From Candidatus Hydrogenedentota bacterium (GTDB lineage: Bacteria > Hydrogenedentota > Hydrogenedentia > Hydrogenedentales > SLHB01), in contig JAKPDK010000167.1 of assembly GCA_029552745.1 (NCBI GenBank), positions 137,973 through 201,972 of the forward strand: a stretch of 64,000 nt of DNA. The letters run 5' to 3'. How positions within the stretch are numbered: the first letter of the stretch is position 1; the number at the start of each line of letters is the position of its first letter. The position numbers and the translations under genes are program-made. Below are positions 18,430 to 59,046 of the stretch, piece by piece. The notes under the pieces are model-generated. The model worked only from the letters and a program-made list of their open reading frames with translations, searched no databases and had not been told where the DNA came from.

Positions 18430-18574
18430 TGTCATTGCGAGGAGCGAGTCCCCGAAGCGACGAAGCAATCCCCTCAACCGCGCAGCGCATAACAACCCCG
18501 GGCGGAGATAGAGCTTCCTTCGAATCCTTAAGGGGATTGCCACGTCGTGCCTTCGGCACTCCTCGCAATGACAG
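18430..18574 (+). repeat. Dispersed hairpin repeat, full copy B
   Basis: About 145 bases that fold on themselves. The outer arms TGTCATTGCGAGGAG and CTCCTCGCAATGACA pair, followed by CCGAAG/CTTCGG, CGACG/CGTCG and GCAATCCCCT/AGGGGATTGC, around a loop of about 55 bases. It lies in the 506-base gap between the amidohydrolase and queA genes. No coding sequence is inside. Confidence 0.95.
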
Positions 18575-24923: not shown

Positions 24924-25553
24924 CTAACGCACCGTAGTACCTACCGTAAAAGCCGAACTGGCGGAAATGCGGGATTGTCTTGTTTGTACCACCTGCATGA
25001 TCACGTACTCACCCGGTTCTAAACTATCCGATATGCGGAAAGGCAACGTGCTGACCCACGTACCTGCCGTCCTGCGAAATGTCTTGGACGAAAGTTCTGC
25101 GATTACTTCGTTGTTACGTTTTAGAACCCGCGTCTCCACCACATCAACGCCCTTGGAAGGTACGCCCAAAAGGGCATACTGAATCGTGGCTTCCGCCATA
25201 TTGCCCGGTTTCACAAAATGGGGATAGACTTGGGCATCATCCAGTTCGAGCATCTCACCCTGTTGCGAGTCGTACTGATGGCGTTGCGCTGTGGTCTGCT
25301 CGTCCATGCTGCGTCGTGCCTTGACATCATGTGCCACAAGACCGGCGATGGTACCGAGCACGGCGCCAATTACGGCTCCTTCGCCGGCATGGCCCGACTG
25401 ATGGCCAATTACCGCACCGGCTCCTGCGCCCGTTGCCGCCCCCAATCCCGCCGCCTCCCCATAGGTCTGACAGCCGGAAACCACGAGCGCCATGGTTATC
25501 AATAGGCACGTCGCAAGCACACAAACTTTTTCACCGCTAGTTTTCGTCTTCAT
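24924..25553 (-). CDS. Glycine-zipper outer-membrane lipoprotein
   Basis: A 209-residue predicted lipoprotein with lipobox VSGC (Cys28). A glycine-zipper segment follows (about residues 36-70, with repeated GxxxG: GLGAATGAGAGAVIG, GAVIGAVLGTIAG). Such segments span or insert into the outer membrane in SlyB-like and 17-kDa-antigen-like proteins. The remaining 110 residues have a beta-sandwich look and end near an RISASSAFTVG motif, but no named domain is recognised. GGAG precedes the ATG by seven bases. The gene is separated from the next gene upstream by 1.2 kb of non-coding DNA. Confidence 0.82.
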   Translation of the reverse strand: MKTKTSGEKVCVLATCLLITMALVVSGCQTYGEAAGLGAATGAGAGAVIGHQSGHAGEGAVIGAVLGTIAGLVAHDVKARRSMDEQTTAQRHQYDSQQGEMLELDDAQVYPHFVKPGNMAEATIQYALLGVPSKGVDVVETRVLKRNNEVIAELSSKTFRRTAGTWVSTLPFRISDSLEPGEYVIMQVVQTRQSRISASSAFTVGTTVR

Positions 25554-25765
25554 TTTCTATCTCCGATAATATCGCCTACACAATAGTCGCCGCAGCTTGT
25601 GAGAAGACATTATACTATCTTTATGCTACGGATTGGGACATAAAAAGTCCACGCACACTTTTAATAGACGCCACTGTAATAAAAAACTTCACTTTTTTAG
25701 AGAACATTTCCAAGGAAAGGGCAATTCGGAAGAGAAAAGGTAGCGCGATTCCAGATAAGGGAGGA

Positions 25766-25905
25766 CGGGACAGGGGGCGCCGCAAAATTAGGAATCTATC
25801 CCGCACCGGCGAAAACGCCACCCTGTCCCGAAACTCTCCATGCGGCAGCCTTTTCGGTTGCCGGTGCTCGGGCGGAACATGGGGGCTAACCCGAGCACAG
25901 GAGAG
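25766..25905. ncRNA. Candidate structured RNA with a three-way junction
   Basis: In the 1195-base gap without protein genes, this segment folds strongly on either strand. CGGGACAGGG (25766-25775) pairs with CCCTGTCCCG (25821-25830), continued by GGCG/CGCC. Next, CTCTCC (25834-25839) pairs with GGAGAG (25900-25905) and encloses two hairpins set end to end: CGGCA-x-CC with GG-x-TGCCG (25843-25863), and GTGCTCGGG with CCCGAGCAC (25864-25898). That is a complete three-way junction. It does not match SRP, RNase P, 6S, tmRNA or riboswitch motifs that I know. The strand is undecided, and a DNA-level repeat is the main alternative. Confidence 0.4.
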
Positions 25906-26093
25906 GGAGGGGCGGAACCAAGACCCTCTTCTGCTATATTCTACCATGCAATTGACCAACTGTGCCGGAGGCAAAGGAGAAAAATAACTACACAAAAGCC
26001 TTCTTGTACTTTGGTAACCTCTTGCACGGGACGAACGACGTCGGAGAGGCATTTGCTTTTTGCATAAGCTCACAAACCTCTGGTACTACATCG

Positions 26094-26121
26094 CGGGGGT
26101 AGCCCCGGGCTTATACCCCGA
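26094..26121. repeat. Short GC-rich inverted repeat
   Basis: GGGGTA (26096-26101) and TACCCC (26114-26119) flank the self-complementary GCCCCGGGC. It lies between the candidate RNA and repeat copy C. No U-run follows on either strand, so it is not a clear terminator. Confidence 0.5.
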
Positions 26122-26283
26122 GTTGTAATTGCGAGAATCGCGTTTCCGATAGACGGGGCATTCTGCCTCCTTCTTTGTTAAGACGTAAGGACTTGCGCCC
26201 TCACCAAATCCATGGATAGGGTGCCCCTTTCTCCGAAGTGCCCCCTGCTGTCATCTCGAGGAAGCAGTCCACGCCGTTCTTTG

Positions 26284-26308
26284 TAGGGGCGAGCCCCCGT
26301 GTTCGCCC
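26284..26308. repeat. GGGCGAGC-type short palindrome
   Basis: GGGGCGA and TCGCCC flank a short loop. It belongs to the same short family as 44910-44931 and 46593-46620, and in each case sits within about 90 bases of a full hairpin repeat. Confidence 0.7.
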
Positions 26309-26320
26309 TCCCCTCGGGGT

Positions 26321-26466
26321 TGTCATTGCGAGGAGCGAGTCTTCGAAGCGACGAAGCAATCCCCTCAACCGCGTAGCGCAAAAGGGCGCTGAGCAGAGGT
26401 TGGGGCAATGTCCCAATCCCCAAGGGGATTGCCACGTCTTGCCTGATGGGACTCCACGCAATGACA
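26321..26466 (+). repeat. Dispersed hairpin repeat, full copy C
   Basis: It has the same arms and order as copy B, with small changes in the right arm (ACTCCACGCAATGACA). The loop contains CAACCGCGTAGCGCA, shared with several copies. It lies 283 bases before the O-antigen ligase gene. Confidence 0.94.
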
Positions 26467-26592
26467 GAGGTAGAGCAATACCGTAATAGTACGAGGAGGT
26501 ACGAAAAAGCAAGTGTTCCCAAATGCTGAAAGGGTTTGTAAGTGGCTGAAACGTACTTGTAGGCGCCACCTGTCGGCGACTTTCACTTAATG

Positions 26593-26663
26593 ACCTTCCT
26601 GGAAAATTCTCTCTACAATTCCTTATCGAACATGAGAAGGAGTGCCAAAGCTACTTGACGAGT
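26593..26663 (+). repeat. Second shared intergenic segment, copy 2
   Basis: This partner of 18610-18681 is aligned by eye over about 70 bases with several short gaps. Like that copy it follows a hairpin repeat and ends roughly 75-85 bases before a plus-strand gene. Confidence 0.55.
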
Positions 26664-26748
26664 ACAGGTTTTTGGAACACACCCCCTAATATAGTCATAA
26701 TAAACGCCGAGCGCGGCAAACGCCATTACAAGGAACCGAACAGAACTT

Positions 26749-29430
26749 ATGAATCACGACTTATCAAAACCCGAATCAAGAGCCTACGCTCCGGCGTTTT
26801 TGTACGCGGCGGTCGTGCTGTCCGTTCTGGCGATCTTTCCATTCACACCGAACGTGGCACAACCCATCAAACTTTTTCTCGCTACGTTGTGTGTGACGAT
26901 GGCGTTACTCGCGCTATTCTACAGGAGCCTGTTTTCCAACCGTCTTACCGCGGGGATAAAGGGGCCACTGGGGACCATTATCCTGTTATACGTCGTTTTA
27001 CACGTTCTTGCGGCGGCATTTTCGGAGTTCCCCGTTAATAGTCTGATGGAACTACAACTACTCGTCGTCTGCACTTTGGCATTCTTTGCCTCTAAATACG
27101 CCTTCCAAGACCTCAAACATTTCCAAAACTTCCTGGTAGCGGCGTGTCTGGCGATGGGGTTGTCTTCGCTTTATGCATTCGCACAGAAAGCGGGCATAGA
27201 CCCCTTCCCCTGGGCAGACCGATCGGCAGATGAGTATCGAGAACTGCCTGCCACGTTCGGAAACGGCAATCTGGCGGCGCACATGCTCGCGCTGTGTGTG
27301 GTGTTTGCAATCTTTTTGGGCAGCGAGCGGCGTTACCGTTGGGCATGGGTTCTTTTGCCCGTTTATTTCCTACACCTTTATTGGACGCGACAACGAGGTG
27401 CGTGGGTCGGGTTTAGTGGCACGCTAGCCTTGCTCGGTATTTTCTTGATGGTGGGCAAGAAGGTGGTTTCGCCGTATCGTCGTACCGCCGCCACGCTGCT
27501 TTTGTGGTCGGCGGTAGGTGTCGTCTCGCTTGTGATCGTTGGTATACTCTGTCGCTTGCTTACGAACATCCCATTTCCCCTCGACCATGCGCTGATGTTG
27601 CGTTACTCCGGGTTTGCCAGTGGAGCTGAAATGATTCGGCAAAAACCGATCTTGGGGTGGGGGGCTGGCAACTATCCCCTGTTCAATCCGCTTTATTGGA
27701 CCGAATACGAACAGGAATACTTCGCGGTCAAAAACAGCATGAATTATCATGTCCATAACGAATGGTTCCAATCTGCCATTGATGCGGGAGTTCCTGCGGC
27801 AGGTCTTTTTCTTCTCTTGTTTCTAGCAGGGATAACCTTAGGATTGTTAACCGCAAGCAAATCTGCCGAACCTCACCGTCGGAGAATTGCTCTTCTGATC
27901 GCGGCATCTCTCTGCACGGTGCTGTTGGATGGAATGGTAGGTTTTAATCTTCATGTTGTCCCCGTGGGGCTCACCGTATTCGTTTTATTGGGTGTGTTGG
28001 AGACGCTGCATGCTGAAGAACCGAAAGTCTGTTCAGCGACCCAGGTACGGTTCACTGTCGGGCTTCTTGCAGGTGTTGCCCTGTTGGTATTTGTTTTGGG
28101 TTTTCGTGTGTTTTACAGTCAGATTTTACTAAAAGATGGCGAAGTTGCCTTGCATCAGCACAATGCGTTTCAAGCGGAACGCGTGTTGGGACGTGGAGAG
28201 CGTTTGGCGCCCTGGAACTGGGAATTTCCTAATTTGCGAGGACACGTGGCGCTGTCCGTTGAAAACCCGGATGCGGCGATTTTCCATTTGGAGCGGGCAT
28301 TGGCGAACAATCCGAACTGCATTCCTGTATTGAGCACACTCGGCCACGCGCATCTCATGCGGGTGCAACAAACGGGAATCACCGAGGAGACCTCAAACTC
28401 TGTAAAGGAAGAGATCCATGCGATACGCACCTATGCCGACCGCATTTTGGAAATCTGCCCATTACACCATTCCGGAGCCGCTTTGCGGGCAACTGCGGCG
28501 CTATTCGAAATGAACGTTGCGGGGTCGGAAATAAACGCAATGCAACGGCAGAATCTGCTGCAACAAGCCTATAACGACATGATGACGGCACTGCACTTTG
28601 CACCGGGACGCACCGCGCCAAACTATGTGACCCTAGCACTGGTTCACCAAGCATTGGGACAAACGAATAAAGCGCAACACGCCTTGCGCATGGCTTGTCG
28701 CCTGGAACCGGATAACGCGGATGCGTGGAACGCCTTTGAAACGTTTGCTTACAAGGAAAACCGTCTGCGGGTGTTCGAAGCCACGTTGACGGATGCCATC
28801 AAGACCTTACAGGGAAGGGACGACACCGACAGTTCAGCGGCGCTGGCTCGACTTTTGGTGGCGCAGGCACGGTTGTACGAGCGTGCTACCAAGGACATCG
28901 GACGCGCCGAACAGTCATTCCAAGAAGCCGTCAAAGCCGATCCCACTTCGGCAACCGTGTGGGATTCCTACAGCCGATTTGCTCGGCAGAATCAACGAAT
29001 GGAGTCTTTTCAAAACACTCTTCGTGAAGCGTGCTCCAGCTTGCCACCTGAAAAGAGTGAGGAACAAAGCATTTTGCTCGCCGTAGATACAGTGATCTCA
29101 AAAGGTCCTGACGCGATCGCCACGGCAGCGGAGAAACTAGAGCAGAGCATGATCGAACATCAACGGCGCGCGGCATATCAAGGAACTCGGATGCCGTTGC
29201 TAGCCTGGGCGACCCAATTTGTGGTTGAGGAATACGAATTACAAAAAGCGAGTATTACCCCGTCTGGCGACACGCTCATGCGGCTTGCCGTGGTGTTGGG
29301 TGAAGCCGGCGACACTCGTAATGCACTTCGATTAGCCGATCGAGCCCTCCCGGTGCTGCCAGATGCCGACCGAGGACGCGCCTTCTATATCCGCCAAAAA
29401 TTCCTGGAACGTTTGAAGCCGCGATCGTAA
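26749..29430 (+). CDS. O-antigen ligase family protein with C-terminal TPR region
   Basis: An 893-residue membrane protein. The first 440 residues hold about 11 membrane spans and the Wzy/WaaL-type periplasmic loop. Landmarks are WTRQRGAWVGFSG (conserved Arg residues), LGWGAGNYPLFNP and VHNEWFQSAIDAGVPAAG. Enzymes of this family polymerise O-units or transfer glycans to lipid A core or to proteins. After the last span (about residue 455) come roughly 440 residues of helical repeats of TPR type (for example AQHALRMACRLEPDNADAWN). The same arrangement occurs in many O-antigen ligase-like proteins of environmental bacteria. AAGGA is about 14 bases upstream, a poor spacing. A lipoprotein gene follows after 60 bases. 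Confidence 0.88.
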   Translation: MNHDLSKPESRAYAPAFLYAAVVLSVLAIFPFTPNVAQPIKLFLATLCVTMALLALFYRSLFSNRLTAGIKGPLGTIILLYVVLHVLAAAFSEFPVNSLMELQLLVVCTLAFFASKYAFQDLKHFQNFLVAACLAMGLSSLYAFAQKAGIDPFPWADRSADEYRELPATFGNGNLAAHMLALCVVFAIFLGSERRYRWAWVLLPVYFLHLYWTRQRGAWVGFSGTLALLGIFLMVGKKVVSPYRRTAATLLLWSAVGVVSLVIVGILCRLLTNIPFPLDHALMLRYSGFASGAEMIRQKPILGWGAGNYPLFNPLYWTEYEQEYFAVKNSMNYHVHNEWFQSAIDAGVPAAGLFLLLFLAGITLGLLTASKSAEPHRRRIALLIAASLCTVLLDGMVGFNLHVVPVGLTVFVLLGVLETLHAEEPKVCSATQVRFTVGLLAGVALLVFVLGFRVFYSQILLKDGEVALHQHNAFQAERVLGRGERLAPWNWEFPNLRGHVALSVENPDAAIFHLERALANNPNCIPVLSTLGHAHLMRVQQTGITEETSNSVKEEIHAIRTYADRILEICPLHHSGAALRATAALFEMNVAGSEINAMQRQNLLQQAYNDMMTALHFAPGRTAPNYVTLALVHQALGQTNKAQHALRMACRLEPDNADAWNAFETFAYKENRLRVFEATLTDAIKTLQGRDDTDSSAALARLLVAQARLYERATKDIGRAEQSFQEAVKADPTSATVWDSYSRFARQNQRMESFQNTLREACSSLPPEKSEEQSILLAVDTVISKGPDAIATAAEKLEQSMIEHQRRAAYQGTRMPLLAWATQFVVEEYELQKASITPSGDTLMRLAVVLGEAGDTRNALRLADRALPVLPDADRGRAFYIRQKFLERLKPRS

Positions 29431-30924: not shown

Positions 30925-30969
30925 GCGCCTCGCCTGAAATAACGGTTCTTCCCTTCTGAGAAAGACAGG

Positions 30970-44685: not shown

Positions 44686-44824
44686 TGTCATTGCGAGGAG
44701 CAAGTCTTCGAAGCGACGAAGCAATCCCCTCAACCGCGTAGCGCAAGAGAACCCAGGGCATGGTCATCCCCGAAATCCTAAGGGGGTTGCCACGTCGTGC
44801 CTAACGGCACTCCTCGCAATGACA
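44686..44824 (+). repeat. Dispersed hairpin repeat, full copy D
   Basis: It has the same outer arms (TGTCATTGCGAGGAG, CTCCTCGCAATGACA) and inner arms as copies B and C, 139 bases. A fragment of a further right end (TCTCGCAATGAC, near 44974-44989) lies downstream. Confidence 0.95.
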
Positions 44825-44847
44825 GCAGGGGAGACGACGGCGCGGTG

Positions 44848-44869
44848 GGGGCGAGGCATGCCTCGCCCC
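44848..44869. repeat. Perfect 22-base palindrome
   Basis: GGGGCGAGGCA is followed directly by its reverse complement TGCCTCGCCCC. It begins 23 bases after repeat copy D. Confidence 0.92.
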
Positions 44870-44909
44870 TACGGGGGAGACCAGGGGTGTGCGCACAAGA
44901 GACGGGGGA

Positions 44910-44931
44910 GGGCGAGCACGGGGGCTCGCCC
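44910..44931. repeat. GGGCGAGC-type short palindrome
   Basis: GGGCGAGC and GCTCGCCC flank a six-base loop (ACGGGG). The rest of the gap to 45060 shows no gene or promoter that can be supported. Confidence 0.85.
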
Positions 44932-45060
44932 CTACAAGAAGACAGGGAAAATGGCTTCCTCGCCCCGAAGACACCGCTTCTCGCAATGACGACCAGGGAC
45001 GGCGCGAAAAGAGGTTCTGGGGCGGTGTGTGCGGGCAAAAATCGTAAATCCCGCTAAAAA

Positions 45061-46505: not shown

Positions 46506-46592
46506 GAGAATTCCTCTGTTCCCCACTACAGGCAACGGATCTTACCCCATTCCAAACTGTCGAGGCAATTGTCCTAGCGGAAGATGACGACG

Positions 46593-46620
46593 TACGGGCG
46601 AGCCCCCGTGCTCGCCCGTA
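46593..46620. repeat. GGGCGAGC-type short palindrome
   Basis: TACGGGCGAGC and GCTCGCCCGTA flank the loop CCCCGT. It lies 13 bases before repeat copy E. Confidence 0.88.
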
Positions 46621-46633
46621 CCGTCCCCCAGTT

Positions 46634-46771
46634 GTCATTGCGAGGAGTGCCGGTAGGCACGACGTGGCAATCCCCTGAGGATTTCGGGGATCACCACGCC
46701 TTGGGTTTTCTTGCGCTACGCGGTTGAGGGGATTGCTTCGTCGCGTCGAAGACTCGCTCCTCGCAATGACA
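46634..46771 (-). repeat. Dispersed hairpin repeat, full copy E (inverted)
   Basis: A full copy in the opposite orientation to copies B, C, D and G: GGCAATCCCCT comes first and GGGGATTGCTTCGTCG second. The loop contains TGCGCTACGCGGTTG, the reverse complement of the loop motif in the other copies. Confidence 0.95.
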
Positions 46772-58903: not shown

Positions 58904-59046
58904 CGTCATTGCGAGGAGCGAGTCTTCGACGCGACGAAGCAATCCCCTCAACCGCGTAGTGTAAAAGGGCGTCGTGCACAGATAGGGCTATTCCGAATTC
59001 CCAAGGGGATTGCCACGTCGCCCCTTCGGCGCTCCTCGCAATGACA
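58904..59046 (+). repeat. Dispersed hairpin repeat, full copy G
   Basis: It has the same orientation as copies B, C and D. The outer arms are GTCATTGCGAGGAGC and GCTCCTCGCAATGAC, the inner arms GCAATCCCCT and AGGGGATTGC. It lies between carB and the calcium-binding-type protein gene; nothing else is seen in that gap. Confidence 0.95.

Follow-up and report, generated by a model that had tools for sequence, protein, structure and literature searches.

REP elements are described as palindromes of 20-40 bp that occur in high copy number, most of them carrying GTAG or CGTC tags (PMC3733652), and REPINs are described as REP doublets in inverted order (PMC3116915). Both are presented in these reports as short intergenic palindromes, often paired and able to fold in RNA or in single-stranded DNA (PMC3733652, PMC3116915). 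Structured GC-rich spacers have also been met in RNA discovery: according to the account given in PMC6429828, 31 such regions without homologue were confined to T. lienii and were left unnamed, and most of the other motifs delivered by that pipeline were classed as mobile or repeat candidates.

Here, we analyzed an element at positions 25766-25905 of the window, i.e., the whole 64,000-nucleotide stretch of DNA under study, which lies in an assembly of 4.36 Mb in 188 contigs. A first-pass annotation of the letters had proposed this element as a strong candidate for a structured RNA. The structure is real and unusually strong, yet the evidence at hand does not justify calling the element a new RNA, since its genome has a single copy, the searches gave no relative and repeated palindromes adjoin it. 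Its likeliest reading, to which we would give about an even chance of being right, is a cluster of inverted repeats at the level of the DNA, set in the gene-free spacer that separates two divergent genes.

The spacer (25554-26748, 1,195 bp) separates a gene for a glycine-zipper protein on the - strand from a gene on the + strand whose product has an O-antigen-ligase-like domain fused to a long TPR region. That about 1.2 kb here is devoid of protein genes, as first annotated, was confirmed: Pfam searches at E up to 1 gave no match for any of the four open frames in the spacer, and protein coding in them was rejected. Of 60 genomes, 57 (the element's own among them) had a match to the glycine-zipper protein at E 0.001, and the nearest relatives of this protein among the named genomes belong to Candidatus Hydrogenedentota. 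A search of genome contigs with this protein gave nine loci, each with at most 59% identity. The length of the spacer in relatives was too noisy to compare, spurious open frames yielding 2 bp even at the element's own locus.

Table 1. Features of the spacer and its flanks (positions in the window).
Feature	Position	Strand	Evidence
Glycine-zipper protein gene, 209 aa	24924..25553	-	Gly-zipper_YMGG, E 6e-7
Likely -10 box TATAAT of the glycine-zipper gene	25609..25614	-	61 nt before ATG, between gene and element
Hairpin 1: 10 + 4 pairs, one-base bulge, irregular inner part	25766..25830	+ or -	folding
Closing stem, 5' side, CTCTCC	25834..25839		pair probability
Hairpin 2: 8 pairs, loop of 5	25843..25863		probability 0.95-1.00 (+), 0.82-0.86 (-)
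Hairpin 3: 9 pairs GTGCTCGGG/CCCGAGCAC around 17 bases	25864..25898		folding, stem-pattern search
Closing stem, 3' side, GGAGAG	25900..25905		pair probability
Dispersed repeat, left module with decayed start of palindromic core (TGTAATTGCGAG at 26124)	26060..26163	+	sequence matches
Dispersed repeat, palindromic core and right arm	26318..26677	+	sequence matches; inverted repeats I1, I2
O-antigen-ligase domain and TPR protein gene, 893 aa	26749..29430	+	Wzy_C, E 4e-13, and TPR families

Three hairpins of 65, 21 and 35 bases make up most of the element. The 14-pair stem read in the first pass is present, as 10 pairs (25766-75/25821-30) followed, past a one-base bulge, by 4 more (25776-79/25816-19), and hairpins 2 and 3 do abut without an intervening base. 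The mean pair probability of hairpin 1 was at least 0.96 on both strands in all six sequence contexts, and all three hairpins kept a probability of at least 0.82 in six of six frames. Being near-perfect inverted repeats, they fold with about the same strength on both strands; G-U pairs are few in the fold (2 of 46 pairs on the + strand, 4 of 48 on the - strand). Taken singly, stems like those of hairpins 1 and 3 are not rare, occurring about once per 20-26 kb: with the target included, 464 kb contained 18 places with a perfect, GC-rich stem of 10 bp and a loop of 20-60, eight of which are arms of the dispersed repeat, and 23 places with a 9-bp stem and a loop of 8-30.

The complete three-way junction that had also been proposed stood in part. 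Its closing complementarity and the adjoining hairpins exist, but a stable junction was not confirmed, and the closing stem depends on the ends chosen. Its probability (+/- strand) was 0.99/0.99 for the 140-mer as cut; with added flanks it became 0.76/0.96 (160 nt), 0.88/0.39 (191 nt), 0.22/0.30 (271 nt), 0.14/0.55 (401 nt) and, for the 496 nt of 25554-26049, 0.03/0.09. Since the closing stem weakens in longer transcripts, the complete junction is a matter of where the fragment was cut, and more generally, a junction read from a cut fragment can disappear once its flanks are included. "Three neighboring hairpins" would be a safer name for the predicted fold.

Folding statistics on both strands, the check suggested with the first-pass annotation, supported the structure. 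When cut at 25766-25905, the element folds with -76.1 kcal/mol (z -6.68) on the + strand and -75.0 kcal/mol (z -5.75) on the - strand, and none of 200 dinucleotide shuffles folded as well on either. A background of 11,360 windows on a 35-base grid was drawn from 400 kb of this genome, and against it the GC-corrected z of the element was -4.41 (+) and -4.23 (-); z < -4 was reached by 3 of the 11,360 on either strand and by none on both. No window in the 400-kb sample equaled the element on both strands, a comparison which flatters the target in that its exact frame is set against a gridded background. The structure exceeds what sequence composition gives, by shuffles and by genome background, and does so more weakly on a common grid. 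On a 20-base grid applied throughout the window, the element was first of 3,193 on the + strand (z -3.81) and sixteenth on the - strand (z -3.20), and a palindromic-repeat copy at 46581 (-3.30, -3.54) slightly beat it on the weaker strand. The best repeat copy sampled in the 400-kb background had z -3.86 and -4.26; its weaker strand thus folds less strongly than that of the element (-3.86 vs -4.23), and its other strand is equally strong, so that the two folds are of about the same strength. Sixteen clusters in this background had z < -2 on both strands. Four of them have at least six other copies in 464 kb, ten adjoin five or more consecutive T or A and may be terminators (two of the ten have one other copy), and two are neither multi-copy nor next to such runs. 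What the element mainly illustrates is that a very low folding energy argues only weakly for an RNA gene when the spacer is rich in repeats.

The second-ranked reading, which we consider possible and clearly less probable than the first, is a lineage-specific structured RNA, i.e., a small RNA made from its own promoter. It draws on the fold statistics, as the element, judged by its weaker strand and in its exact frame, is more structured than any other place in the 400-kb sample and ranks first in the window on the + strand, as well as on the gene-free spacer and on two stems that adjoin directly, like those of coaxial stacks. In addition, hairpin 2 contains one G-U pair on the + strand where the - strand has a mismatch, which slightly favors the + strand. 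An RNA of the + strand would begin with hairpin 1; on the - strand, a weak TAGAAT box with a preceding TG, read by eye at 25943-25938, could start an RNA near 25931. A more specific form, somewhat more tentative still, is a lineage-restricted small RNA of about 140-170 nt with one long and two coaxially stacked short hairpins, which would be made from this spacer between the gene of an envelope protein and that of an O-antigen ligase and is perhaps a domesticated palindromic repeat. A narrow literature search combining Hydrogenedentota with palindromic or small RNA returned nothing on such an element, and an RNA at this place would add one to a phylum for which that search showed none.

The searches for relatives weigh against an RNA. 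No known RNA family had been recognized in the first pass, and this was upheld, with no Rfam match in the window at the gathering score; at E up to 5 over the spacer, Rfam gave two weak matches alone, both inside the dispersed repeat, and no tRNA or tmRNA was found. The element is single-copy in its genome, a point that counts instead against the palindrome-cluster reading: the stem of hairpin 1 (GGGACAGG..CCTGTCCC, gap 20-50) occurs at this sole place and the stem pattern of hairpin 3 is likewise unique, so that the many genomic copies which would mark it as only a repeat are not there. BLAST at E 0.001 gave no match in 99 genomes besides its own. Among the 68 genomes of Candidatus Hydrogenedentota (67 besides its own, all of other genera), BLAST matches at E up to 0.1 in 21 of the 67 were put down to chance, being 19-35 nt long with a best E of 7e-4. 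A covariance model built from the single sequence of the element (R1), run with strict filters that lose weak matches, gave five weak matches besides its own in 100 genomes, with E of 0.0115-0.55 per genome and many pairs broken, which we also attribute to chance. Over 30 loci of the element's own genome that contain the dispersed repeat (98 kb), R1 matched the target alone. Plasmids gave no match to the element, phages gave one 21-nt match ascribed to chance, and the stretches of viral contigs that carry one or the other stem pattern (37 and 16, respectively) reached at best 19.6 bits with R1, compared with 179 for the target, and were rejected. There thus appears to be no convincing homologue in the 67 other genomes of the phylum, in plasmids or in phages.

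Expression signals point the same way, as does the instability of the closing stem in context. In a consensus scan, neither promoter-like nor terminator-like sites (a GC-rich hairpin, then a U run) were found beside or at the element on either strand. However, the scan does not list the TATAAT at 25614, which is the likely promoter of the glycine-zipper gene, and is therefore insensitive, and its silence at the element is weak evidence. In view of the near-equal strands, the context-dependent closing stem, the lack of scan signals and the repeat-rich spacer, "strong candidate" for a structured RNA is too strong a wording.

A third possibility is a transcription roadblock or insulator between divergent promoters, which would place strong hairpins, without a U-tract, in any read-through transcript. 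The position fits, as the element lies between two divergent genes that each have a promoter-like site near their own start (for the O-antigen-ligase/TPR gene, the scan placed such sites at 26590-26619 and 26672-26701), and its hairpins are symmetric. The missing U-tract argues against it, and the terminator-like sites in 25400-26900, two compared with 1.9 in shuffles, are no more than expected and both lie away from the element. Strong single hairpins followed by T runs were seen elsewhere in the window, near 30961/30979, 39941/39972 and 60481/60543 (approximate positions); by their look these are ordinary intrinsic terminators, which suggests that the genome uses such terminators. We consider a roadblock doubtful.

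Less probable still is a riboswitch-like 5' leader of the glycine-zipper gene. The element does lie 212 bp upstream of the start codon, on the promoter side, and in the upstream regions (60-720 nt) of 28 orthologues some window folded with z < -4 in six, by a noisy scan (20 shuffles, 40-base steps) that gave the target only -3.85. Against this, the structured windows of the six orthologues differ in distance (60-460 nt) and in strand, and the folds of the two that were compared show no likeness. Moreover, an exact TATAAT occurs within 90 nt upstream in 8 of 29 glycine-zipper orthologues, compared with a mean of 1.1% in farther windows, although the eight include two nearly identical sequences and one orthologue, L007, in which AT-rich DNA holds three such boxes. 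Judging from its TATAAT box, the gene is probably served by a separate promoter that lies on the near side of the element, and the element would then probably fall outside the leader. That ordinary inverted repeats of a GC-rich spacer came together by chance is just as improbable, for although about 0.25 such pairs of stems, each within 140 bases, are expected in 464 kb, a third adjoining hairpin is also needed and the fold energy lies beyond all 200 shuffles on each strand.

The reading as a cluster of inverted repeats in the DNA draws on the surroundings of the element. Dispersed palindromic repeats cover nearly half of the spacer. The main one is several hundred bases long as a whole, with a left module resembling CATAAGTTCACAAACCTTTGGCACTGCATCGAGG, a palindromic core that starts TGTCATTGCGAGGAG and a conserved right arm; matches to some of its copies start at 26239. 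A search of the spacer against its own genome, which scored 40 of 252 candidate regions, gave at least 43 other places with an E of 1.2e-28 or lower and at least 90 matches at E up to 10. Elsewhere in the phylum only a short segment of the core was matched, at E 1e-6 and in at least 4 of 67 genomes (up to 12 candidates were scored in each), and a text search of the literature returned no paper mentioning the core string. Further core copies are present in the window at 44686-44991, 46592-46771, 18430-18573 and 58904-59046, the first two in arrays with other GC-rich hairpins (GGGCGAGCCCCCGTGCTCGCCC, GGGGCGAGGCATGCCTCGCCCC). A second palindromic family has a compound unit like CCCCCGCATGCGGGGGACACAGGGGGCTGAACCCTGCGCAGGGGATAGAAAGCC, found, when up to 2 mismatches are allowed, at 22 genomic places (e.g., loci L109, L116 and L129), and in the 21 copies listed the TGTCATTGCGAGGAG core or a variant starts within about 20 bases after the unit. 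Other palindromic families also adjoin core copies. REPs and REPINs go with a dedicated RAYT transposase that the repeat flanks. The genome has two matches to the Y1 transposase family (PF01797, Y1_Tnp), at loci L130 and L131 with 153.6 and 23.6 bits; these loci (3,354 and 2,641 bases) contain none of the four palindromic repeat motifs scanned.

Whether the element itself belongs to one of these families was examined by sequence comparison, and no part of it appears to be a clear repeat copy. Hairpin 3 with its flank (25869-25904) weakly resembles the second family: the family profile gave 10.3 bits on the target, a score reached by none of 1,000 shuffles, and over 464 kb the target place had 10.0 bits (E 0.3), under 20 stronger matches, the 16 strongest of which are palindromic repeat units. 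Strand and order relative to the TGTCATTGCGAGGAG core are as in the 21 listed copies, but the target sits 416 bp from the core and the family copies about 20 bp. Because the family was picked by its comparison with the target and the shuffles destroy palindromy, the p-values are too small and the likeness of hairpin 3 is suggestive only. BLAST against 558 kb of the genome gave a best E of 0.062, with a local score reached by 10% of 200 shuffles, and the sum of the ten best local scores was reached by 1.5% of 200 shuffles. Six family consensus sequences compared with the target gave one p of 0.004 and one of 0.042, and five single repeat pieces from the window gave one of 0.008 and one of 0.072 (all uncorrected). 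The core and arms of the TGTCATTGCGAGGAG element were no more similar to the target than to shuffles (p at least 0.979), hairpins 1 and 2 showed no likeness to any repeat tested, and no flanking direct repeats of 12 or more were found at the element.

Near-equal strands, few G-U pairs, the repeat-rich spacer and the absence of visible expression signals together argue for palindromic DNA over an evolved RNA. Within the population of palindromic repeats that this genome carries, the element may be a member that has decayed or a one-off. Replication and transposition pass through single-stranded intermediates, which might favor the insertion of palindromes and their local copying in such spacers, and the element would then be transcribed at most in passing, with no dedicated RNA gene. 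We infer both this palindromic origin and the absence of an RNA function.

The element resembles the regions of PMC6429828, as they are described there, in being a structured GC-rich spacer sequence without homologue, and differs from them in that its fold statistics were compared with its own genome. With the TGTCATTGCGAGGAG dispersed element it shares the spacer and a strong structure on both strands (near 26321 and 46581), whereas that element has many copies and a different sequence. The setting is like that of REPs and REPINs, as palindromic repeats abound in its spacer and genome, and hairpins 2 and 3 fit the REP size; hairpin 1 is longer. Unlike REPs, the element is single-copy and contains neither GTAG, CGTC nor their complements in 25766-25905, and unlike the REPIN doublets its hairpins differ in sequence. 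As it fails in copy number and tag, we do not file it as a REP, although it may have an origin in common with REPs.
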